Below are positions 8,721-60,815 of a stretch of DNA of 64,000 nucleotides, piece by piece. The DNA is from Cordylochernes scorpioides (Eukaryota > Arthropoda > Arachnida > Pseudoscorpiones > Chernetidae). The notes under the pieces were generated by a model. It saw only the letters and a program-made list of their open reading frames with translations. It was not told where the DNA came from and searched no databases. Positions within the stretch are counted from its first letter, which is position 1; each line of letters starts with the position of its first letter. The translations under genes and the position numbers were made by a program. The stretch lies in assembly GCA_030710605.1 (NCBI GenBank), contig CP092868.1, positions 24,847,104 to 24,911,103 on the forward strand. Reading direction: 5' to 3'.

Positions 8721-9258
8721 TACACTCATGGCCACAAAACTTAAGGAGAAGTGGAAAGTCTCCGGTAGTCTTTTGTTTTTAAGGAGTCAGAGGCAATTTT
8801 GTTCACACTTTATTATCTTGTGTGTCTTCAATAAAGGTCACTATAATATCTTTCAGAGTTATTGTCTGAATTCCGATATATATGCTAAAAGGTACAACTT
8901 CCTTAAGTTTTGTTCACACTTTATTATCTTGTGTGATTTCAATAAAGGTCACTGTAATATCTTTCAGAGTTATTGTCTGAATCCAGCTATACATGCTAAA
9001 AGGTACAACTTCCTTAAGTTTTGTTCACACTTGGTTATCTCGTGTGTCTTCAATAAAAGTCACTGTCATATATTTTAGAGTTATTGTCTCAATCCCGATA
9101 TACATGCTAAAAGGTATAACTTCCTTAAGTTTTGTTCACACTTGGTTATCTCGTGTGTCTTCAATAAAGATCATTGTGTATCAAATATTGATTTATTGTC
9201 TGAATCCAGATATACATGCTAAAAGGTACAACTTCCTTAAGTTTTGTTCATGAGTGTG
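8721..9258. mobile_element. Tc1-like MITE with internal 118-bp tandem repeats
   Basis: Begins TA-CACTCATGG...CAAAACTTAAGG and ends CTTAAGTTTTGTTCATGAGTG, so the termini are inverted repeats. The interior is about four tandem units of roughly 118 bp containing GTTATTGTCTGAATCC, CTAAAAGGTACAACTTCC, TTCACAC and CTTCAATAAAGGTCACTG. Frames through it are artefacts of repetition. At least eight other loci in the window belong to this family. Confidence 0.75.
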
Positions 9259-9499: not shown

Positions 9500-9600
9500 C
9501 TGGAAACTCTCCTCAGTAGCAGGTCACAGACTTAGTTTCCCTATTGAATGCCTGCTTCTGTCGTGAAGAACATGGTCGAAATATAATAATCCTTTTCATC
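9500..9600 (+). mobile_element. Fragment shared with the 40.4-kb block (LINE 5' region?)
   Basis: CTCAGTAGCAGGTCACAGACTTAG and the following 50 bp resemble the CTCAGTGGCAGGCCGACTTAG stretch at 40400-40470. No coding frame. Confidence 0.35.
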
Positions 9601-9613
9601 TTATCAATTAATC

Positions 9614-9786
9614 TTAAACTGGCGAAACCGGTGGGAGTGTTCACCACTGATGAGCCAGGCCCTCCCTTTAATTTTTCCATTGCAGTAAGGACAGTAGAAA
9701 TTGTTTAATTTCAAAAAGAATCTTACGCGTCTAAAATAGTTTCTAATTTTCATAGTTTAAAATGCATGAATAATTTTTAATTTAGA
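9614..9786 (+). mobile_element. SINE-H copy a (5'-truncated)
   Basis: Starts inside the ribozyme-like core: CTGGC-GAA-ACCGG, then CACCA-CTGATGA-GCCAG. The first strand (GCGGTC-TGGTG) is missing, so no complete hammerhead core is possible here. The stem II pair CTGGC/GCCAG differs from the TTGGC/GCCAA of other copies in a compensatory way. The downstream body (ACGCGTCTAAAATAGTTTC) matches copy b. Confidence 0.7.
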
Positions 9787-10967: not shown

Positions 10968-11165
10968 TTCAATATAACAGCGGTATGGTAGATTAAACTG
11001 GTGAAACCGCTGGGAGGGTTCACCACTGATGAGCCAGGCCCTCCCATTAATTTTCCCATTGCAGTAAGGGTAGTAGAAATTTTTTTAATTTTCAAAAGAA
11101 TCTTACGCGTCTAAAATAGTTTCTAATTTTCATAGTTTAAAATGCATGAATAATTTTTAATTTTA
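10968..11165 (+). mobile_element. SINE-H copy b with variant permuted hammerhead core
   Basis: Core at 10980-11037. Strand 1 is GCGGT-A-TGGTA, strand 2 CTGGT-GAA-ACCGC, strand 3 CACCA-CTGATGA-GCCAG. Stem III is intact (5 bp). The cleavage triplet is GUA, allowed by the NUH rule. Stem II keeps pairing through a T-A to C-G change plus one G-U. Stem I loses only its distal pair. GGGAGGG (11012-11018) can pair with CCCTCCC (11039-11045). Confidence 0.75.
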
Positions 11166-12690: not shown

Positions 12691-12707
12691 AAAGAGAATA
12701 TGTATAT

Positions 12708-12752
12708 GGAACGCTTCACGATTTTGCGTGTCATCCTTGCACAGGAGCCATT

Positions 12753-12789
<37 letters not shown>

Positions 12790-12809
12790 ACCGCCGAACA
12801 AGCGAGTAC
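12708..12809 (-). pseudogene. U6 snRNA retrocopy with 16-bp target-site duplication
   Basis: The minus strand reads nearly full U6: 5' stem-loop GTACTCGC...GCGGTAC, CATATACTAAAATTGGAACG, the ACAGAGA box with GATTAG, then TGCAAGGATGACACGC, AAAATCGTGAAGCGTTCC. Differences from standard animal U6 include GAATGG for GCATGG and a 3-nt expansion in the 5' loop (CTTGTTCGG). Direct repeats AAGAGAATATGTATAT flank it perfectly (12692-12707 and 12810-12825), the mark of LINE-mediated insertion. There is no oligo-A tail and no U6-type upstream promoter was seen. It is probably non-functional, but it shows which U6 variant fed the satellites elsewhere in the window. Confidence 0.9.
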
Positions 12810-16325: not shown

Positions 16326-17452
16326 GCATGTTAATATTATCTCTGTGTCCTTCCTATTGTGGTAGTTGTACCGCCGAACTGGTATCACAGGGGCCATGCT
16401 AATATTCTCTGTATCCTTCATATTGTAGTAGTTGTACCGCCGAACTGGTATCACAGGGGCCATGGTAATATTCTCTGTATCCTTCCTATTGTAGTAGTTG
16501 TACCGCCGAACTGGTATCACAGAGGCCATGCTAATATTCTCTGTATCCTTCATATTGTGGTAGTTGTACCGCCGAACTGGTATCACAGGGGCCATGCTAA
16601 TCTTTTCTGTATCCTTCATATTGTAGTAGTTGTACCGCCGAACTGGTATCACAGGGGCCATGCTAATCTTTTCTGTATCCTTCCTATTGTGGTAGTTGTA
16701 CCGCCGAACTGGTATCACAGGGGCCATGCTAATCTTTTCTGTATCCTTCATATTGTAGTAGTTGTACCGCCGAACTGGTATCACAGAGGCCATGCTAATC
16801 TTTTCTGTATCCTTCCTATTGTGGTAGTTGTACCGCCGAACTGGTATCACAGGGGCCATGCTAATCTTTTCTGTATCCTTCATATTGTAGTAGTTGTACC
16901 GCCGAACTGGTATCACAGGGGCCATGCTAATCTTTTCTGTATCCTTCCTATTGTGGTAGTTGTACCGCCGAACTGGTATCACAGGGGCCATGCTAATCTT
17001 TTCTGTATCCTTCATATTGTAGTAGTTGTACCGCCGAACTGGTATCACAGGGGCCATGCTAATCTTTTCTGTATCCTTTCTATTGTAGTAGTTGTACCGC
17101 CGAACTGGTATCACAGAGGCCATGCTAATCTTTTCTGTATCCTTCCTATTGTAGTAGTTGTACCGCCGAACTGGTATCACAGAGGCCATGCTAATCTTCT
17201 CTGTATCCTTCCTATTGTAGTAATTGTACCGCCCAACAAGTATCACAGGGGCCATGCTAATCTTCTCTGTATCCTTCATATTGTAGTAGTTGTACCGCCC
17301 AACAAGTATCACAGGGCCATGCTAATCTTCTCTGTATCCTTCCTATTGTAGTAGTTGTACCGCCGAACTGGTATCAGAGACCATGCTAATCTTCTCTGTA
17401 TCCTTCCTATTTTACAAGTTGCACATCCTAAAATTTTTGCAGAGGCCATGCT
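16326..17452 (-). repeat. U6 snRNA-derived satellite, 66-bp unit, about 16-17 copies
   Basis: On the minus strand each unit reads TTGTTCGGCGGTAC or GTTCGGCGGTAC, ACTACTACAATAGGAAGG, ATACAGAAAAGATTAGCATG, GCCCCTGTGATACC. This tracks U6 from its 5' stem-loop through the ACAGAGA region and AGC to GCATGGCCCCTG, where true U6 continues into its internal stem-loop. Most units here have ACAGAAA for ACAGAGA. Because 66 is divisible by 3 and stops are absent, both strands give long artefactual ORFs (332 and 330 codons). Confidence 0.9.
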
Positions 17453-18860: not shown

Positions 18861-19302
18861 TGTCAGGCATGCTGCTTGGCCCCATTTCGATCTCGCCGTC
18901 CAACTTTCACCAGTAAAATAGTTCCTTCGTTTTCTGCCCGTAACTTCTTTATTATTCGATTTTGTTATAAAATATGTAGATACTTTGTTATAAGGGTGGT
19001 AGGTGATTGTTAATTTGTACTGAGAGTATGCTAAGAAGCGGGAAAGTAGGTCGGCGAAAGTGCGCAGAAGGATGTGCGGAAGGATACAGTGTTGTCGTAA
19101 CAGCGAGCCGGTTGCCGGAGTCGGGGTTTTAGCCTAGTTCCCATTTGGCGTTCGTCGCGTGCGGTCGTGTGACCTTGTTCCGGAGAGAAAATACGGCGGT
19201 GGCTTAGCGCCTCCAGGGAATCAACAGGGGCCGTTATTCGGCCCTTCCCTTCGCAACGGCGACTTCAAGGCTCTGGCAGGAGTTGGACCGCGGGACTTCG
19301 CC

Positions 19303-19344
19303 ATGTTATTACGCTGCAGGCATGGACTCTCCCCCGCTCTATGA
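19303..19344 (+). other. Short upstream ORF overlapping the C/EBP start
   Basis: ATG at 19303 (context GCCATGT, purine at -3) opens a 13-codon frame that ends at TGA 19342-19344. It is in another frame and overlaps the first codons of C/EBP (ATG 19322). Vertebrate C/EBP alpha and beta carry a short uORF that tunes start-site choice; here the position differs because it overlaps rather than precedes the start. Other ATGs exist further up if the leader is long. Confidence 0.5.
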
Positions 19345-20128
19345 CTCCATCCTGCCGCAGCCCTACCACGATAAGCTGAAGCTTAGTGCAGGTGAGCTTG
19401 GGGACGGCTCTGTGCCGGACCTTGCCGACCTTAACTCCCCCGAGGTGTCTTTGGACCTTCACAACTTTATTCAGCATCACCATCAACAGCAGCAGGATTC
19501 GCCTATCTTCCAGGACATTCTAAGTGCCGAGGATAAGCAACAGAGATTCCTTTCTCCTTCCAATTTTTTCATGCCCCAGCAGCAAAATTCTTCACTCGGT
19601 CCACCTGGTGACCGATACGGAGCAGAAGCATCAGTGCACGTCAAGCAAGAACATAACGGCCGGCCGTGCGCTCATAATGCAACAGCATTTGCACCTCCAC
19701 CTCAAGCATTTGCATCTTTATTGGATCCACGAGCAGCAGCTGCTGGTCTAAGCATCACAGGATCCGCTGGATTTCTTCCCTCTGGAGCCGATTTTGTAAG
19801 CCGTGGTGGCCCCGGACTTCCACACGGGACTGCAACTTCTCTTAAATCAGTTCCAAACCATTCGAAGCTCAAGTCGAAGAAAAGCGTCGACAAATCTACA
19901 GATGAATATCGACGACGACGTGAACGCAACAACATCGCAGTACGTAAGTCAAGAGAGAAAGCTAAACAACGTTCGAAAGAGACTGAGAAAAAAGTCTCCG
20001 AGCTCCATCGCGAAAATGATATGCTTCGTAAAAGGATTGAACATCTTTCAAAAGAACTCACTGTACTTAAAAGTTTGCTGACCACTTACGGCATTAGCAA
20101 TGAAGCCATGGAGTATGTATCAACATGA
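19322..20128 (+). CDS. C/EBP-family bZIP transcription factor, single exon, 268 aa
   Basis: CCAAT/enhancer-binding protein: a nuclear, dimeric, sequence-specific DNA-binding regulator of differentiation and stress/immune genes in animals. The C-terminal bZIP spans about residues 192-254: basic region with [19 protein letters not shown] (the C/EBP signature), then a zipper with leucines in [18 protein letters not shown] and [13 protein letters not shown]-terminally, [23 protein letters not shown] and [19 protein letters not shown] look like conserved activation blocks. VKQE (107-110) fits a sumoylation site as in the regulatory domain of vertebrate family members. HHHQQQQ (52-58) is low-complexity. 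I chose ATG 19322 (GGCATGG, strong context); the in-frame codon at 19283 is TTG, not ATG. No intron is needed, as is usual for C/EBP genes. Codon use and GC differ from the AT-rich surroundings, as expected of a live gene. The exact paralogue is not assigned. Confidence 0.95.
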
Positions 20129-24333: not shown

Positions 24334-25930
24334 TTCCCCGTGATACTTGTTCGGCGATACAACAACTACAATAGGAAGGATACAGAGAAGATTAGCATGG
24401 CCCCTGTGATACTTGTTGGGCGGTACAACTTCTACAATAGGAAGGATACAGAGAAGATTAGCATGGCCCCTGTGATACTTGTTGGGCGGTACAACTTCTA
24501 CAATAGGAAGGATACAGAGAAGATTAGCATGGCTCCTGTGATACTTGTTGGACGGTACAACTACTACAATAGGAAGGATACAGAGAAGATTAGCATGACC
24601 CCTGTGATACTTGTTGGGCGGTACAACTACTACAATAGGAAGGATACAGAGAAGATTAGCATGCCCCCTGTGATACTTGTTAGGCGGTACAACTACTACA
24701 ATAGGAAGGATACAGAGAAGATTAGCATGGCCCCTGTGATACTTGTTAGGCGGTACAACTACTACAATAGGAAGGATACAGAGAAGATTAGCATGCCCCC
24801 TGTGATACTTGTTAGGCGGTACAACTACTACAATAGGAAGGATACAGAGAAGATTAGCATGACCCCTGTGATACTTGTTGGGCGGTACAACTACTACAAT
24901 AGGAAGGATACAGAGAAGATTAGCATGCCCCCTGTGATACTTGTTAGGCGGTACAACTACTACAATAGGAAGGATACAGAGAAGATTAGCATGGCCCCTG
25001 TGATACTTGTTAGGCGGTACAACTACTACAATAGGAAGGATACAGAGAAGATTAGCATGCCCCCTGTGATACTTGTTAGGCGGTACAACTACTACAATAG
25101 GAAGGATACAGAGAAGATTAGCATGGCCCCTGTGATACTTGTTAGGCGGTACAACTACTACAATAGGAAGGATACAGAGAAGATTAGCATGGCCCCTGTG
25201 ATACTTGTTAGGCGGTACAACTACTACAATAGGAAGGATACAGAGAAGATTAGCATGGCCCCTGTGATACTTGTTGGGCGGTACAACTACTATAATAGGA
25301 AGGATACAGAGAAGATTAGCATGGCCCCTGTGATACTTGTTGGGCGGTACAACTACTACAATAGGAAGGATACAGAGAAGATTAGCATGGCCCCTGTGAT
25401 ACTTGTTGGGCGGTACAACTACTACAATAGGAAGTATACAGGTAAGATTAGCATGGCTCCTGTGATACTTGTTGGGCGGTACAACTACTATAATAGGAAG
25501 GATACAGAGAAGATTAGCATGGCTCCTGTGATACTTGTTGGGCGGTACAACTACTATAATAGGAAGGATACAGAGAAGATTAGCATGGACCCTGTGATAC
25601 TTGTTGGGTGGTACAACTACTACAATAGGAAGGATACAGAGAAGATTAGCATGGCCCCTGTGATACTTGTTGGGTGGTACAACTACTACAATAGGAAGGA
25701 TACAGAGAAGATAAGCATGGTCCCTGTGATACTTGTTGGGTGGTACAACTACTACAATAGGAAGGATACAGGTAAGATTAGCATGGCCTCTGTGATACCA
25801 GTTCAGCGGTACAACTACTACAATAGGAAGGATACAGAGAAGATAAGCATGGTCCCTGTGATACTTGTTGGGTGGTACAACTACTACAATAGGAAGGATA
25901 CAGGTAAGATTAGCATGGACCCTGTACGTC
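24334..25930 (+). repeat. U6 snRNA-derived satellite, 66-bp unit, about 24 copies
   Basis: Units read ACTTGTTGGGCGGTACAAC, TACTACAATAGGAAGG, ATACAGAGAAGATTAGCATG, GCCCCTGTGAT. The ACAGAGA box and downstream AGC are kept in nearly all units; GGTAAG replaces GAGAAG in a few. Neighbouring variant units recur in blocks (for example GCCCCCTGTG alternating with GGCCCCTGTG at 24660-25110), showing recent multi-unit duplication. The right edge (25920) ends abruptly in CCTGTACGTCAG. Long ORFs on both strands are artefacts. Confidence 0.9.
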
Positions 25931-27711: not shown

Positions 27712-28180
27712 ATATACTCATGGACAAAACTTAAGGAAGTTGTACCTTTCAGCATGTATATCGGGATTCATACAATAACTCTGAAAGATATTACAGTGAC
27801 CTTTATTGAAGACACACGAAATAACTAAGTGTGAACAAAACTTAAGGAAGTTGTACCTTTCAGCATGTATATCGGGATTCATACAATAACTCTGAAAGTT
27901 ATTACAGTGACCTTTATTGAAGACACACGAGATAACCAAGTGTGAACAAAACTTAAGGAAGTTGTACCTTTTACCATATATATCGGGATTCAGACAATAA
28001 CTCTGAAAGATATTACAGTGACCTTTATTGAAGACACACGAGATAACCAAGTGTGAACAAAACTTAAGGAAGTTGTACCTTTTACCATATATATCTGGAT
28101 TCAGACAATAACTCTGAAAGTTATTACAGTTACCTTTATTGAAGATACACGAGATAACCAAGTATGAAGAACCTTTGTAT
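27712..28180. mobile_element. Tc1-like MITE with about four internal units
   Basis: Left terminus CTCATGGACAAAACTTAAGG, then tandem units of about 118 bp with GTTGTACCTTT, CGGGATTCA, GACAATAACTCTGAAAG and GACACACGAGATAACC. The right terminus is lost after GATAACCAAGTATGAAG. Confidence 0.75.
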
Positions 28181-31955: not shown

Positions 31956-32080
31956 GTATTAGATCTCTAAAGAAACGGTCTGGTGGATTAAATTGGTGAA
32001 ACTGCTGGGAGGGTTCACCACTGATAAGCCAAGCCCTTCCAATATTTTTTCATCGCAGTGAGGACAGTAGAAGTTTGATT
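31956..32080 (+). mobile_element. SINE-H copy c, 3' part with broken permuted hammerhead
   Basis: Core at 31975-32032: ACGGTC-TGGTG, TTGGT-GAA-ACTGC, CACCA-CTGATAA-GCCAA. The invariant G of CTGATGA is A and stem III has a wobble and a mismatch, so activity is not expected. The outer helix partners are GGGAGGG and CCCTTCC. Confidence 0.75.
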
Positions 32081-36389: not shown

Positions 36390-39300
36390 AGAATCCAACA
36401 AGCAGCAGCCACAGTTACTGTGTGATCCCAACAACATCCCAACAAGCAGCAGGAGCCACAGTTACTGTGTGATCCCAACAACATCCCAACAAGCAGCAGG
36501 AGCCACAGTTACTGTGTGATCCCAACAACATCCCAACAAGCAGCAGCAGCCACAGTTACTGTGTGATCCCAACAACATCCCAACAAGCAGCAGGAGCCAC
36601 AGTTACTGTGTGATCCCAATAACATCCCAACAAGCAGCAGCCACAGTTACTGTATGATCCCAATAACATCCCAACAAGCAGCAGCCACAGTTACTGTATG
36701 ATCCCAACAACATCCCAACAAGCAGCAGCCACAGTTACTGTGTGATCCCAACAAGCAGCAGCAGCCACAGTTACTGTGTGATCCCAACAACATTCCAACA
36801 AGCAGCAGCCACAGTTACTGTATGATCCCAACAACATCCCAACAAGCAGCAGCCACAGTTACTGTGTGATCCCAACAACATCCCAACAAGCAGCAGCCAC
36901 AGTTACTGTGTGATCCCAACAACATCCCAACAAGCAGCAGCCACAGTTACTGTGTGATCCCAACAACATCCCAACAAGCAGCAGCAGCCACAGTTACTGT
37001 GTGATCCCAACAACATCCCAACAAGCAGCAGCCACAGTTACTGTATGATCCCAACAAGCAGCAGCCACAGTTACTGTGTGATCCCAACAACATCCCAACA
37101 AGCAGCAGCCACAGTTACTGTGTGATCCCAACAACATCCCAACAAGCAGCAGCCACAGTTACTGTGTGATCCCAACAACATCCCAACAAGCAGCAGCAGC
37201 CACAGTTACTGTGTGATCCCAACAACATCCCAACAAGCAGCAGCCACAGTTACTGTATGATCCCAACAACATCCCAACAAGCAGCAGGAGCCACAGTTAC
37301 TGTGTGATCCCAACAACATCCCAACAAGCAGCAGGAGCCACAGTTACTGTGTGATCCCAACAACATCCCAACAAGCAGCAGCCACAGTTACTGTGTGATC
37401 CCAACAACATCCCAACAAGCAGCAGCCACAGTTACTGTGTGATCCCAACAACATCCCAACAAGCAGCAGCCACAGTTACTGTGTGATCCCAACAACATCC
37501 CAACAAGCAGCAGCCACAGTTACTGTATGATCCCAACAACATGCCAACAAGCTGCCACAGTTACTGTGTGATCCCAACAACATCCCAACAAGCAGCAGCA
37601 GCCACAGTTACTGTGTGATCCCAACAACATCCCAACAAGCAGCAGCCACAGTTACTGTATGATCCCAACAAGCAGCAGCCACAGTTACTGTGTGATCCCA
37701 ACAACATCCCAACAAGCAGCAGCCACAGTTACTGTATGATCCCAACAAGCAGCAGCCACAGTTACTGTGTGATCCCAACAACATCCCAACAAGCAGCAGC
37801 CACAGTTACTGTGTGATCCCAACAACATCCCAACAAGCAGCAGCCACAGTTACTGTGTGATCCCAACAACATCCCAACAAGCAGCAGCAGCCACAGTTAC
37901 TGTGTGATCCCAACAACATCCCAACAAGCAGCAGCCACAGTTACTGTATGATCCCAACAAGCAGCAGCCACAGTTACTGTGTGATCCCAACAACATCCCA
38001 ACAAGCAGCAGCCACAGTTACTGTGTGATCCCAACAACATCCCAACAAGCAGCAGCCACAGTTACTGTGTGATCCCAACAACATCCCAACAAGCAGCAGC
38101 AGCCACAGTTACTGTGTGATCCCAACAACATCCCAACAAGCAGCAGCAGCCACAGTTACTGTGTGATCCCAACAACATCCCAACAAGCAGCAGCCACAGT
38201 TACTGTATGATCCCAACAACATCCCAACAAGCAGCAGGAGCCACAGTTACTGTGTGATCCCAACAACATCCCAACAAGCAGCAGGAGCCACAGTTACTGT
38301 GTGATCCCAACAACATCCCAACAAGCAGCAGCCACAGTTACTGTGTGATCCCAACAACATCCCAACAAGCAGCAGCCACAGTTACTGTGTGATCCCAACA
38401 ACATCCCAACAAGCAGCAGCAGCCACAGTTACTGTGTGATCCCAACAACATCCCAACAAGCAGCAGGAGCCACAGTTACTGTGTGATCCCAATAACATCC
38501 CAACAAGCAGCCACAGTTACTGTATGATCCCAACAAGCAGCAGCCACAGTTACTGTGTGATCCCAACAACATCCCAACAAGCAGCAGCCACAGTTACTGT
38601 GTGATCCCAACAACATCCCAACAAGCAGCAGCCACAGTTACTGTGTGATCCCAACAACATCCCAACAAGCAGCAGCAGCCACAGTTACTGTGTGATCCCA
38701 ACAACATCCCAACAAGCAGCAGCAGCCACAGTTACTGTGTGATCCCAACAACATCCCAACAAGCAGCAGCCACAGTTACTGTGTGATCCCAACAACATCC
38801 CAACAAGCAGCAGCCACAGTTACTGTATGATCCCAATAACATCCCAACAAGCAGCAGCCACAGTTACTGTATGATCCCAACAAGCAGCAGCCACAGTTAC
38901 TGTATGATCCCAATAACATCCCAACAAGCAGCAGCCACAGTTACTGTATGATCCCAACAAGCAGCAGCCACAGTTACTGTGTGATCCCAACAACATCCCA
39001 ACAAGCAGCAGCCACAGTTACTGTGTGATCCCAACAACATCCCAACAAGCAGCAGCCACAGTTACTGTGTGATCCCAACAACATCCCAACAAGCAGCAGC
39101 AGCCACAGTTACTGTGTGATCCCAACAACATCCCAACAAGCAGCAGCAGCCACAGTTACTGTGTGATCCCAACAACATCCCAACAAGCAGCAGCCACAGT
39201 TACTGTGTGATCCCAACAACATCCCAACAAGCAGCAGCCACAGTTACTGTGTGATCCCAACAACATCCCAACAAGCAGCCACAGTTACTGTGTGATCCCA

Positions 39301-39830
39301 ACAACATCCCAACAAGCAGCAGCCACAGTTACTGTGTGATCCCAACAACATCCCAACAAGCAGCAGCCACAGTTACTGTGTGATCCCAACAACATCCCAA
39401 CAAGCAGCAGCCACAGTTACTGTGTGATCCCAACAACATCCCAACAAGCAGCAGCAGCCACAGTTACTGTGTGATCCCAACAACATCCCAACAAGCAGCA
39501 GCCACAGTTACTGTGTGATCCCAACAACATCCCAACAAGCAGCAGCCACAGTTACTGTTTGATCCCAACAACATCCCAACAAGCAGCAGCAGCCACAGTT
39601 ACTGTGTGATCCCAACAACATCCCAACAAGCAGCTGCCACAGTTACTGTGCGATCCCAACAACATCCCAACAAGCAGCAGCCACAGTTACTCTGCGATCC
39701 CAACAAGCAGCCACAGTTACTGTGTGATCCCAACAAGCAGCCACAGTTACTGTGTGATCCCAACAAGCAGCCACAGTTACAGTGTGATCCCAACAACATC
39801 CCAACAAGCAGCAGCAGCCACAGTTGGCAG
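36390..39830. repeat. Satellite, about 44-bp unit, about 75 copies
   Basis: Unit: CAGCAGCCACAGTTACTGTG, TGATCCCAACAACATCCCAA, CAAG. Length varies by CAG triplet number (one to three) and by loss of the 15-bp AACATCCCAACAAGC-like segment. Strongly strand-biased (A/C-rich on plus). The right edge passes through units with GCGATCC variants into the GC-rich block at 39830. Frames across it are artefacts. Confidence 0.95.
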
Positions 39831-41486: not shown

Positions 41487-41880
41487 ACGCTTGTTCGTCG
41501 GTACATAACCTAAAATTGGAACGATACAGCGAAGATTAGCATGGCCCCTGTGATACTTGTTGGGCGGTACAACTACTACAATAGGAAGGATACAGCGAAG
41601 ATTAGCATGGCCCCTGTGATACTTGTTGGGCGGTACAACTACTACAATAGGAAGGATACAGCGAAGATTAGCATGGCCCCTGTGATACTTGTTGGGCGGT
41701 ACAACTACTACAATAGGAAGGATACAGCGAATATTAGCATGGCCCCTGTGATACTTGTTGGGCGGTACAACTACTACAATAGGAAGAATACAGAGAAGAT
41801 TAGCATGGCCCCAGTGATACCAGTTCGGCGGCACAACTACTACAATAGGAAGGACACAGAGAATCTTATGTCCATAGAGT
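41487..41880 (+). repeat. U6-derived satellite with intact U6-like first unit, about 6 copies
   Basis: The first unit still reads as U6: ACGCTTGTTCGTCGGTACAT, AACCTAAAATTGGAACGATA, CAGCGAAGATTAGCATGG. It passes into 66-bp satellite units (ACTACTACAATAGGAAGG, GATACAGCGAAG). This is the clearest link between genuine U6 and the satellite. The array runs straight into SINE-H sequence at about 41868-41876. Confidence 0.9.
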
Positions 41881-44319: not shown

Positions 44320-44535
44320 TGTCTTTTTTATACATAAAACAAACTTCTACTGTCCTTACTGTGATGAAAATATATTGGGAGGGCTTGGCTCATCAGTGGT
44401 GAATCCTCCCAGCGATTTCGCCAATTTAATCTACCAGACCGCTTCTTTAGAGCTCTAATACTGTATTGGAAGATTCTGTTTATATATGCTACACTGAAGG
44501 GTGGAATCTTAGAAATGGTTTTTAAGCAAAGTCTA
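44320..44535 (-). mobile_element. SINE-H copy d with permuted hammerhead core
   Basis: Core on minus at 44385-44442: GCGGT-C-TGGTA, TTGGC-GAA-ATCGC, CACCA-CTGATGA-GCCAA. Core bases and GUC are intact. Stem III has one U-G wobble, stem I loses the distal pair, stem II is perfect. Upstream (higher coordinates) the element joins the U6 array at about 44536: CTTATGTCCATAG follows ATACAGAGAAG. Confidence 0.8.
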
Positions 44536-45526
44536 TGGACATAAGCTTCTCTGTATCCTTCCTATTATAGTATTTGTACTGTCGAACTGATATCACAGGG
44601 ACCATGTTAATCTTCTCTGTATCCTTCCTATTGTAGTAGTTGTACCGCCCAACAAGTATCACAGGGGCCATGCTAATCTTCTCTGTATCCTTCATATTGT
44701 AGTAGTTGTACCGCCGAACTGGTATTACAGGGGCCATGCTAATCTTCTCTGTATCCTTCCTATTGTAGTAGTTGTACCGCCGAACTGGTATTACAGGGGC
44801 CATGCTAATCTTCTCTGTATCCTTCCTATTGTAGTAGTTGTACCGCCGAACTGGTATTACAGGGGCCATGCTAATCTTCTCTGTATCCTTCCTATTGTAG
44901 TAGTTGTACCGCCCAACAAGTATCACAGGGGCCATGCTAATCTTCTCTGTATCCTTCATATTGTAGTAGTTGTACCGCCGAACTGGTATTACAGGGGCCA
45001 TGCTAATCTTCTCTGTATCCTTCCTATTGTAGTAGTTGTACCGCCCAACAAGTATCACAGGGACCATGATAATATTCTCTGTATCCTTCCTATTGTAGTA
45101 GTTGTACCGCCCAACAAGTATCACAGGGACCATGCTGATCTTCTCTATATCCTTCCTATTGTAGTAGTTGTACCACCGAACTGGTATCACTGGGGCCATG
45201 CTAATCTTCTCTGTATCCTTCCTATTGTAGTAGTTGTACTGCCCAACAATTATCACAGGGGCCATGCTAATCTTCTCTGTATCCTTCCTATTGTAGTAGT
45301 TGTACCGCCGAACTGGTATTACAGGGACCGTGCTAATCTTCTCTGTATCCTTCCTATTGTAGTAGTTGTACCGCCGAACTGGTATTACAGGGACCATGCT
45401 AATCTTCTCTGTATCCTTCCTATTGTAGTAGTTGTACCGTCGAACTGGTATTACAGGGACCATGCTAATCTTCTTGGTATACTTCATATTGTAGTAGTTG
45501 TACCGCCCAACAAGCGTGTAGCGTGA
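44536..45526 (-). repeat. U6-derived satellite with U6 5' end, about 15 copies, fused to SINE-H
   Basis: On minus, the array opens at about 45526 with CTACACGCTTGTTGGGCGGT, matching the U6 5' end beyond the repeat unit, then 66-bp units (GTTCGGCGGTACAACTAC, AATAGGAAGGATACAGAG, AAGATTAGCATGGTCCC), and ends in SINE-H. Both GTTCGGCGG and GTTGGGCGG unit types alternate. Orientation U6 5' to SINE-H 3' is the same as at 41487-41951. Confidence 0.9.
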
Positions 45527-51601: not shown

Positions 51602-52035
51602 TACACTGATGGACAAAACTTAAGGAAATTGCAAAGTCTTTAATGTCGGGATTGTCTTTTTTTCTTTTTTGAAGGAGACAGAGGCAATTTTTTTCATACT
51701 TGGTTATCTCGTATGTCTTCAATAAAGGTCACTGTAATATCTTTCAGAGTTATTGTCTGAATCTCGATATACATGCTGAAAGGTACAACTCCTTAAGTTT
51801 GTTCACATCTGGTTATCTCGTGTGTCTTAATAAAGGTCACTGTAATATCTTTCAGAGTTATTGTCTGAATCCCGATATACATGCTAAAAGGTACAACTTC
51901 TTTAAGTTTTGTTCACACTTGGTTATCTCTTGTGTCTTCAATAAAGATCACTGTAATATCTTTCAGAGGTATTGGCTTAATCCGTACATGCTAAAATTTT
52001 CAACTTCTTTAAATTTTGTCCATGAATGTATATAT
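51602..52035. mobile_element. Tc1-like MITE, complete, about three internal units
   Basis: TA-CACTGATGGACAAAACTTAAGG at left, AAATTTTGTCCATGAATGTA at right. Internal 110-118-bp units with TTCAATAAAGGTCACTG and GTTATTGTCTGAATC. Confidence 0.8.
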
Positions 52036-53118: not shown

Positions 53119-53484
53119 TAACAGATTTATAAATGAAAAATATGCAAAACAACTACAAACAAATAAAAAACAAATAACTAAAAACAAATAAACAATTATA
53201 TACATCACAAACTATGAACGATAAACAAAAGATAAGCAAAGAGGGGAAATGTACAGGGTATAGCAAAATATAAACATTTAAAAAAAAGATACTCTGCTAA
53301 TAAAATAATAAAAACTTTGTTACAATATTTTAACTCGTGTTCTATTGGCGAATTATTATACCATGTTTTTCTCCTGTAAACAATTAGACAATTAAAATAA
53401 TTTTATTGACATCTTGTCAATACATGCAAAGTGCACAGTCTGCACTATTTAAAAATATATATATATATATATATATAAAACAAA

Positions 53485-53697
53485 AGGATTTAAAAGCGCG
53501 AATGTTTCTTTTATACATAAAACGAACTTCTACTGTCCTTACTGCGATGAAAAATATATTGGGAGGGCTTGGCTCATCAGTGGTGAACCCTCCCAGCGGT
53601 TTCGCCAATTTAATCCACCAGACCGCTTCTCAGAGCTCTTATACTGTATTGGATCATTCTGCTTTTATATGCTACACTGAAGGATGGAATCTTATGG
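53485..53697 (-). mobile_element. SINE-H copy e, perfect permuted hammerhead core
   Basis: Core on minus at 53569-53626, identical to copies f and g: three perfect 5-bp stems, GUC, CTGATGA, GAA. Copies e and f form a head-to-head inverted pair meeting at about 53697, so the transcript could fold on itself instead. An (AT)n run lies at 53457-53480. Confidence 0.85.
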
Positions 53698-53905
53698 ATG
53701 TAGCATATAAAAGCAGAATGATCCAATACAGTATTAGAGCTCTGAGAAGCGGTCTGGTGGATTAAATTGGCGAAACCGCTGGGAGGGTTCACCACTGATG
53801 AGCCAAGCCCTCCCAATATATTTTTCATCGCAGTAAGGACAGTAGAAGTTCGTTTTATGTATAAAAGAAACATTCGCGCTTTTAAATCCTTTTGTTTTAT
53901 ATGTA
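53698..53905 (+). mobile_element. SINE-H copy f, perfect permuted hammerhead core
   Basis: Core at 53749-53806; predicted cleavage after C53754. It starts inside the element at GTAGCATATAAAAGCAGAAT and continues through TTCATCGCAGTAAGGACAG to ATTCGCGCTTTTAAATCC. Confidence 0.85.
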
Positions 53906-53957
53906 TAGATGGCGCGTTATTGCTTTGTGTTAATTTATTCCTAATGGCCTTGTCTTT

Positions 53958-54300
53958 ATAGTTTGCTGAAGAGCATTGCTCGAAGCAAATATTTAAATGT
54001 AATTCTACTGTCCTATAAGCATATGTCCATAGTTTACTTGAAAACCATTTCTAAGATTCCATCCTTCAGTGTAGCATATAAAAGCAGAATGATCCAATAC
54101 AGTATTAGAGCTCTGAGAAGCGGTCTGGTGGATTAAATTGGCGAAACCGCTGGGAGGGTTCACCACTGATGAGCCAAGCCCTCCCAATATATTTTTCATC
54201 GCAGTAAGGACAGTAGAAGTTCGTTTTATGTATAAAAGAAACATTCGCGCTTTTAAATCCTTTTGTTTTATATGTATAGATGGCGCGTTATTGCTTTGTG
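53958..54300 (+). mobile_element. SINE-H copy g, longest copy, perfect permuted hammerhead core
   Basis: About 343 bp: GTTTGCTGAAGAGCATTGC, TAATTCTACTGTCC, ATGTCCATAGTTTACTTG, TAGCATATAAAAGCAGAAT, core at 54120-54177, TTCATCGCAGTAAGGACAG, then TATAGATGGCGCGTTATTGC. Core: GCGGT-C-TGGTG (54120-54130), TTGGC-GAA-ACCGC (54138-54150), CACCA-CTGATGA-GCCAA (54161-54177). Copies f and g are in direct tandem 371 bp apart. No tRNA A/B boxes, no ORF. Confidence 0.88.
54120..54177 (+). ncRNA. Hammerhead-like ribozyme, strand-permuted (S1-S2-S3), candidate
   Basis: S1 is GCGGU, C17 (54125), UGGUG. S2 is UUGGC, GAA, ACCGC. S3 is CACCA, CUGAUGA, GCCAA. Stem I pairs UGGUG with CACCA, stem II GCCAA with UUGGC, stem III ACCGC with GCGGU; all are 5 of 5 Watson-Crick and sit exactly where the hammerhead core requires (A15.1-U16.1, G10.1-C11.1). 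Linkers are 7 nt (GATTAAA) and 10 nt (TGGGAGGGTT). In the canonical ribozyme the cyclic order is S1-S3-S2, so this is not a circular permutation; folding needs a pseudoknot or a dimer. GGGAGGG in the linker can also pair with CCCTCCC at 54179-54185. Cleavage activity is inferred, not shown. Confidence 0.6.
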
Positions 54301-54303
54301 TTA

Positions 54304-54662
54304 ATATATATATTTATATATATATAAATCAATGTTTGTTTGTTTGTTTGTATGTCCGGTATACAAATTCGCAGTAGTTCACTAATTCAAACCAAAATTT
54401 CCATACATAGGTACAAAAAATACGGGGAAGATGATAGGCTATTTTAAAAAATATATAAATCAATTATTAAAACTATATATTCAAATTATTCTACTTAGCT
54501 CACGAACAGCGCCCTCTATCAACGATTAAATTATGCTGATGCAAACAAATAGATAATGTTAATAACAAACAATTATAAAAAAAAAATCTTATCTAAATAT
54601 ATATCACTCGGGTAGATATGTACACGGGTCAATCCCGGGGCGAAGCCCGGGTCACCCGTCTA
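54304..54662 (-). mobile_element. RTE-like non-autonomous retroelement
   Basis: Reverse of 43867-44221: ATATATATAAATCAATG at the tail, GACCCGTGTAC / CCGGGGCGAAGCCCGGGTCA at the head, CTAG at the end. Confidence 0.6.
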
Positions 54663-60379: not shown

Positions 60380-60815
60380 ATACACTCATGGACAACAATT
60401 AAGGAAGTTGTACCTTTTAGCATGTATATTGGGATTCAGACAATAACTCTGAAAGATATTACAGTGACTTTTATTGAAGACTTACGAGATAACCAAGTGT
60501 GAACAAAACTTAAGGAAGTTGTACCTTTTACCATGTATATCGGGATTCAGACAATAACTCTGAAATACATTACAGTGACCTTTATTGAAGACACACGAGA
60601 TAACCAAGTGTGAACAAAACTTAAAGAAGTTGTACCTTTTATCATGTATATCAGTATTCAGACAATAACTCTGAAAGATATTACAGTGGCCTATATTGAA
60701 GACACACGAAATAATAAAGTGTGATCAAAATTGCCTCTGTTGACTTTAAAAAACAGACTACCGGCGACTAAAAGACTAAGGCTAAGTTTTGTCTATGTTT
60801 GTATTTCTTCTTAGT
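60380..60815. mobile_element. Tc1-like MITE, complete, three to four internal units
   Basis: TA-CACTCATGGACAACAATTAAGG at left; right end CTAAGTTTTGTCTATGTTTGTA. Internal units with GACAATAACTCTGAAAG and CGAGATAACCAAGTGTGAAC. Confidence 0.8.

Follow-up and report, generated by a model that had tools for sequence, protein, structure and literature searches.

The stretch analysed here (the window) is a 64,000-nucleotide segment of contig CP092868.1 of the pseudoscorpion Cordylochernes scorpioides (GenBank assembly GCA_030710605.1, positions 24,847,104 to 24,911,103, forward strand). Within it lies a composite insertion (53465-54309) made of a mobile repeat with a unit of 371 nt, in which an inverted copy on the minus strand (53465-53694) is followed by a head-to-tail stretch on the plus strand (53699-54309) that is 611 nt long, or about 1.6 units, and holds two ribozymes. 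By unit mapping, one unit from predicted cut to predicted cut (m1-m371) occupies 53755-54125 (+), and the outer ends of the composite fall at unit positions m156 on the left and m184 on the right. The second plus-strand ribozyme, at 54120-54177, is by its sequence a hammerhead of type SGC, and it very probably forms part of a non-autonomous, retrozyme-like 371-nt element mobilized by a Penelope-like element (PLE), whose RNA would cleave itself.

A preliminary description of this DNA had placed all hammerhead parts in three segments, and the window letters bear this out: S1 (54120-54130, GCGGT-C-TGGTG), S2 (54138-54150, TTGGC-GAA-ACCGC) and S3 (54161-54177, CACCA-CTGATGA-GCCAA) form stems I to III with 15 of 15 pairs Watson-Crick, arranged around CUGAUGA, GAAA and the GUC cut site. 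Reading along the plus strand, from the sequence and the list of pairs, block S opens with the stem III 5' strand AGCGGU (54119-54124), the pair A54119-U54151 allowing this stem to be extended to 6 bp, and continues with the cleavage-site nucleotide C54125 of GUC; by analogy with the published layout of type SGC (PMC10085705), the cut is predicted to fall between positions 54125 and 54126. The stem I 5' strand UGGUG (54126-54130) is joined by the 7-nt linker already recognized in the preliminary description (GAUUAAA, 54131-54137) to block G, which consists of the stem II 3' strand UUGGC (54138-54142), the conserved GAAA (54143-54146), whose last A pairs with U54124, and the stem III 3' strand ACCGCU (54146-54151). 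Block C comprises the stem I 3' strand CACCA (54161-54165), the catalytic core CUGAUGA (54166-54172) and the stem II 5' strand GCCAA (54173-54177).

What had been taken for a 10-nt linker between stems III and I is mostly GGGAGGG (54152-54158), which begins immediately 3' of stem III and is one strand of a fourth (interaction) stem; since it pairs with CCCUCCC (54179-54185), block C comes to lie in the loop of a 7-bp hairpin. The nested fold is one of two neighbouring hairpins, stem III, whose loop carries the strands that blocks S and G contribute to stems I and II, and the fourth stem, with block C in its loop. Both were found by RNAfold (-28.9 kcal/mol, z-score -2.96, none of 200 shuffles equally stable), and when a 430-nt stretch is folded, the fourth stem pairs with probabilities of 0.99-1.0 and stem III with 0.37-0.73. 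The two hairpin loops would meet in a double kissing contact formed by stems I and II.

The window was scanned on both strands for all six block orders, with five of five standard pairs required in each stem together with the core motifs, and linkers of up to 60 allowed. Three sets were returned, at 53749 (+), 54120 (+) and 53569 (-), all in the order S1-S2-S3, which upholds the non-circular, pseudoknotted arrangement first proposed, and 100 dinucleotide-shuffled versions of the window, scanned likewise on both strands, gave no set of any order. The set is thus real and chance is excluded as its source, in agreement with the earlier judgement that a random match was very unlikely. A looser scan of the window and loci from the same genome (360,640 bases, including the locus L051 described below) gave 57 sets, all S1-S2-S3, some of them counted twice where loci overlap and 30 of the loci having been picked by core match, whereas 7.2 million shuffled bases gave none in this order and one in another. 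The additional sets in the window belong to the ribozyme of the first tandem unit (53748-53814, +) and that of the inverted arm (53561-53627, -), both identical to the one at 54120. Copy alignment places diverged copies at 44377-44443 (-) and, with a damaged core CTGATAA, at 31974-32040 (+), a lineage B copy with the stem II CUGGU/GCCAG and the cut site GUA at 10979-11045 (+) and a partial ribozyme copy near 9597-9671 (+). At Rfam gathering thresholds the window gave 32 matches, all to U6 and none to a hammerhead, and a search of the genome with Rfam Hammerhead_1 gave none either, a weak test since the control genomes also gave none. A generic 35-place pattern of the G-to-C part has 927 matches in the animal's own genome and none in viral_contigs; there are 36 in prokaryote genomes, none of the 36 with the full set, and these look like chance matches.

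The preliminary description had held that no natural hammerhead with this strand order was known, and on this point it is superseded: non-circular hammerhead permutations including type SGC (the HRIMA-1 motif and its variants) were reported by Eckert et al. (2023; PMC10085705). In that form the blocks run S-G-C, the linker between stems I and II is short (typically three nucleotides between S and G), stems I and II are joined on their other sides by an extra helix, which in a few cases adjoins stem III without an intervening nucleotide. Predictions numbered 583 sequences, and five RNAs cleaved in vitro at the predicted place, as single short transcripts; cleavage was lost on mutation of a core G, and in one RNA loss and rescue were obtained for each of the four stems. 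The sequences came from environmental samples (metatranscriptomes), their carriers being unknown and none being reported there from the genome of a known organism (PMC10085705). A literature search, with subscription journals and preprints mostly outside its reach, found no type-SGC hammerheads beyond this report, and the two citing papers that it did find concern structure-comparison tools. The ribozyme in the window has the block order S-G-C, the core bases CUGANGA and GAAA, a U-H cut site, stems I to III and the extra helix (54152-54158 with 54179-54185; CTCAGG/CCTGAG in L051). The S-G linker is 7 nt long in lineages A and B of the repeat, 6 nt in lineage C and 3 nt in L051. At another sampled locus, a ribozyme copy (L048, 4417-4502) has an S-G linker containing several consecutive A residues, and its stems I to III still pass the scan.

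The repeat is abundant. In the assembly of 2.62 Gb in 24 contigs, 66,972 places (33,628 + 33,344) match the 48-nt G-to-C part with three mismatches or fewer, lineage B is represented by 22,250 places and lineage C by 9,841 (the three counts overlap as sets), and the reversed-pattern control was zero in each case. Lineage B has the stem II CUGGC/GCCAG, in which a U-A pair has become C-G, and the cut site GUA; lineage C, with a tandem period of mostly 367-368, has A-U where G-C stood, both within stem I and within the fourth stem. Counted as exact 40-mers, the C-G form of the stem II pair occurs 13,344 times, and the single changes C.A and U.G occur 333 and 356 times. The 76 position-unique copies sampled contain 45 distinct core sequences, of which 31 entered the pair count and 14, lacking a homologous block S or having large losses, were left out; in the MAFFT alignment of these sequences a single linker base is misplaced in the rows of lineage C, a fault absent from a table registered by hand. 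Among the 31 sequences 91.8 % of cells pair, compared with 89.7 % after shuffling, two-sided cells number 18 against 6.5 and the covariation scores are 0.145 for the sequences and 0.108 for the shuffles; each of these three values was reached in 0 of 500 shuffles. The compensatory changes expected among genomic copies are thus present, with two of five measures not above shuffling, and since the sequences share ancestry the independent events are few, namely three between the repeat lineages plus the L051 comparison.

The arrangement of the repeat was followed in sampled loci, of which L001-L030 were chosen by exact core match in the first 5 Mb of contig 1 (several overlap) and L031-L050 are 20 arbitrary 10-kb stretches, 8 of them containing parts of the repeat. 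It occurs as head-to-tail arrays of the 371-nt unit and as head-to-head inverted composites; the tandem spacing in the window is 371 bp, L030 holds a continuous stretch of 826 nt at 97 % identity, and 9 of 95 stretches exceed 371 nt. The 3' ends form two clusters about 30 nt apart: of 96 ends mapped, 51 have at least 85 % identity, and 22 of these fall in m141-160 and 23 in m171-190. There are 30 composites, 19 of which have both arms at 85 % identity or more and reduce to 16 independent ones when collapsed by eye via common flanks, and in 14 of the 16 the two outer ends are divided between the clusters, as though each composite had been made by two enzyme molecules starting at different sites. 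Flanking words of at least 9 bp common to both outer sides, which we regard as target-site duplications (TSDs), were found in 13 of the 30 composites and in 5 % of mismatched pairings, with the qualification that 3 of the 13 represent one insertion in a repeated host stretch and that some words, including the one in the window, are simple AT repeats. Inverted composites with outer ends in differing 3' clusters were seen at L009, L014, L016, L019, L024, L028 and L049.

The element had been described as resembling a short interspersed nuclear element (SINE). That it is a mobile repeat stands; the 371-nt tandem unit, the head-to-head inverted insertions, the two 3' ends, the TSDs and the presence in the genome of a GIY-YIG element whose ribozyme has this topology lead us to regard it rather as a retrozyme-like satellite of PLE-type elements. 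An origin from a tRNA-derived SINE was considered at first and set aside, ARAGORN finding no tRNA in the window.

The coding element with this topology was found among the GIY-YIG elements of the genome, which number 17,015 first-look candidates (146 matches among 150 scored) and include several head-to-head pairs. L051 was chosen for its GIY-YIG pair alone. It is an inverted pair with 98 % identity, and its open frame encodes on its N-terminal side a GIY-YIG domain (PF01541, 26.6-27.7 bits against a cut-off of 22.6), followed in the same frame, about 520 residues further on, by QGVPMGTSSSPLLANL and YVDD, which we take to be reverse transcriptase (RT) motifs. Comparison of this RT region with the PDB gave five non-significant matches, to a maturase RT (E-value 0.43), an autophagy protein (0.5) and telomerase (1.0-1.3). 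The N-terminal position of GIY-YIG resembles that in the elements called 'Naiads'. Each of the two arms also carries, some 0.85 kb upstream of its open frame, a type-SGC set with stems unlike those of the repeat: GGCAGU-A-AUGGAG-UAA-GGGCC-GAAACUGCU-GCUCAGG-U-CUUCAU-CUGAAGA-GGCCC-A-CCUGAG. When this set is registered on the structure by hand all 23 pairs form (three of them G-U), 12 having changed on both sides relative to lineage A, and 23 pairs were reached by none of 200,000 letter shuffles. The L051 ribozyme is found at 524 places genome-wide with three mismatches or fewer, some of them in tandem 5.2-5.3 kb apart. In L051 (1-5200) and in contig C1 at about 8.983-8.995 Mb the ribozyme recurs at about 5.26-5.29 kb, with tandem and inverted copies together.

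This second ribozyme bears on whether the parts might instead be assembled across two tandem units, with S1 and S3 taken from one unit and S2 from the unit that follows, which would give a canonical hammerhead of ordinary cyclic order. Such an assembly can be drawn on paper, as the units are tandem both in the window, 371 bp apart, and in the 826-nt stretch of L030, and Cervera and de la Pena (2020; PMC7229834) record that axolotl hammerheads cleave much better as dimers. We consider it very unlikely indeed, however: the fourth helix, with its compensatory change, keeps block C beside S and G of its own unit, the coding element retains a compact S-G-C arrangement with a 3-nt S-G linker although its next copy is some 5.2-5.3 kb away, and the published type-SGC RNAs act as single short transcripts (PMC10085705).

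The cores of L051 and of lineages A, B and C are alike except at the cut-site base (C or A) and at N7 (U or A), both of which are free to vary in hammerheads. In 55 diverged copies (those with less than 88 % identity, of 101) the ribozyme region m1-60 has 86-90 % identity compared with 58-79 % elsewhere, a figure biased upward because loci were picked by the ribozyme core; m241-280 is also well kept, at 83-85 %. Such conservation would also fit a structured RNA without catalytic activity, for instance a binding site for the PLE protein that resembles a hammerhead by descent or by chance, and a PLE protein is described by Frangieh et al. (2024; PMC11167929) as requiring RNA near the start of its open reading frame. 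This explanation is nevertheless quite unlikely, for a protein site has no need of a hammerhead core, the shuffles exclude chance, the catalytic bases are kept in four lineages with the two varying ones being those that tolerate change, and m241-280 could be the protein site instead.

A further possibility is that the ribozyme was functional in ancestral elements and that present copies are decaying relics. Many cores are broken and the insertion ends bear no mark of cutting, as this would have it; against it, three lineages comprise thousands of near-identical copies, there are tandem arrays of exact core matches, and 28 of the 76 sampled core copies are identical across the ribozyme, in a sample biased by 30 loci picked by exact core match. 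We regard decay as unlikely, and source copies have probably been active recently.

The type-SGC hammerhead within a PLE-mobilized, retrozyme-like element remains the reading that we favour. According to this, multimeric or circular RNA would be cut between C54125 and U54126 and at equivalent places, leaving 5'-OH and 2',3'-cyclic phosphate ends, and the 371-nt monomers would be closed into circles. A PLE protein could then copy monomers, circles or multimers from two internal starts, one for each target strand, and this two-start copying would produce both inverted composites and tandem copies longer than one unit; ribozymes of the L051 type would cut tandem transcripts of the coding element itself.

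Several observations weigh against this scheme, of which cleavage, circles and the helper enzyme are all inferred from sequence. Stems I and II are absent from the predicted nested fold, nested folding being unable to represent pseudoknots. Damaged cores are common among single copies, and stem I contains a mismatch in two of the lineages, A.C at its end in B and A.A within it in C. Among the covariation measures, pairs with two-sided change (6 against 4.4 shuffled, 110 of 500) and further pair types (17 against 18.1, 443 of 500) do not rise above shuffling, and a control slid by two columns also reaches 6 two-sided pairs, with 7 cells as against 18. The RT of L051 rests on motifs, the domain being incomplete in the sequence examined and without a Pfam RT match, and comparison of the 371-nt unit with L051 gave no match in sequence, so that a PLE helper for the repeat is a presumption. 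The 5' ends of insertions show no enrichment at the predicted cut: m1-20 contains 1 of 49 starts (at 85 % identity or more), a count that led us to drop an impression by eye of copies starting exactly at the cut site; a circular template would likewise give insertion 5' ends away from the cut. For the PLE of Anolis, the published account states that the hammerhead is dispensable for insertion in vitro, that it cleaved only when protein was added and that no reads ended at the cut site (PMC11167929).

Several further features were noticed in the window. A satellite derived from U6 small nuclear RNA, with a 66-bp unit corresponding to its first 65 nt or so, forms four tandem arrays recognized by Rfam U6 (16342-17411, -; 24336-25925, +; 41510-41863, +; 44542-45511, -), beside which there is a full-length U6-like copy at 12700-12809 (-). 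At 36395-39706 a 44-bp unit, strongly skewed in both GC and AT, is repeated about 76 times in an array, and a related unit of 108-111 bp forms four short tandem arrays in both orientations (8797-9250, 27724-28168, 51688-52019 and 60392-60730). Of the 24 long open frames 10 were scanned, and the one that most clearly resembles a host gene is a 306-aa frame at 19208-20128 (+) with a C-terminal bZIP domain (PF07716, E-value 3e-15) that appears C/EBP-like by eye. Genome-wide there are 748 overlapping matches to TTAGG arrays, and those listed include interstitial arrays of about 600 bp in contig C1 at about 4.117 Mb; the TTAGG arrays and the C/EBP-like bZIP frame would both be in keeping with an arthropod.

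With these findings type SGC acquires a host, a setting in a genome and a probable role, and its origin, expression and catalysis can be tested in one organism. They suggest that a pseudoknotted ribozyme can serve retrozyme-like elements and their helpers where type I is usual, they make many natural variants available for mapping the pairs that the permuted fold needs, and the paired 3' ends are relevant to how DNA synthesis is begun by PLE proteins on each of the two target strands. A broader proposal, to which we give about even chances, is that a PLE lineage with an N-terminal endonuclease uses type SGC as its standard processing ribozyme and that satellites of about 370 nt with circular RNA and the same topology account for a visible part of the genome. 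If so, the orphan type-SGC RNAs of environmental samples could be retroelement-derived or retrozyme-like circles as well as viroid-like agents.

Among known systems, the repeat can be compared with the animal retrozymes without long terminal repeats, as described by Cervera and de la Pena (2020; PMC7229834). Like these it is built of short tandem units, each a few hundred bp long and containing a hammerhead, its 371 bp lying within the 150-450 bp of retrozyme units, and it has TSDs of more than 4 bp, a very high copy number and PLE-like elements in the same genome. It departs from them in the hammerhead itself, which is type I in animal retrozymes and has the order S-G-C here, and circular RNA has been demonstrated for animal retrozymes and is deduced for the repeat (PMC7229834). 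Frangieh et al. (2024; PMC11167929) describe a PLE, Poseidon of Anolis, that cuts and extends both target strands and has two adjacent internal RT start sites, hence an optional tail of 30-40 bp. Poseidon shares with the elements described here the GIY-YIG endonuclease, tandem and partial copies and a hammerhead within the element; the paired 3' ends of the 371-nt repeat, about 30 nt apart, fit such a two-start tail, and its inverted composites have the shape expected when both target strands are cut (PMC11167929). In L051, GIY-YIG lies N-terminal of the RT motifs and a type-SGC hammerhead precedes the open frame.

With the published type-SGC ribozymes (PMC10085705) the repeat has in common the block order, the core, stems I to III and the fourth stem, and in both the linker between stem III and the fourth stem is short or absent. 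The S-G linker of the repeat is longer (7 or 6 nt), while the L051 ribozyme has the typical three nucleotides. The published examples are environmental RNAs, whereas the ribozyme described here is genomic, lies in retroelements and is present in tens of thousands of copies; what is new is the presence of a type-SGC hammerhead in nuclear retroelements of an animal-type genome, both in a coding element and in a high-copy, satellite-like partner.
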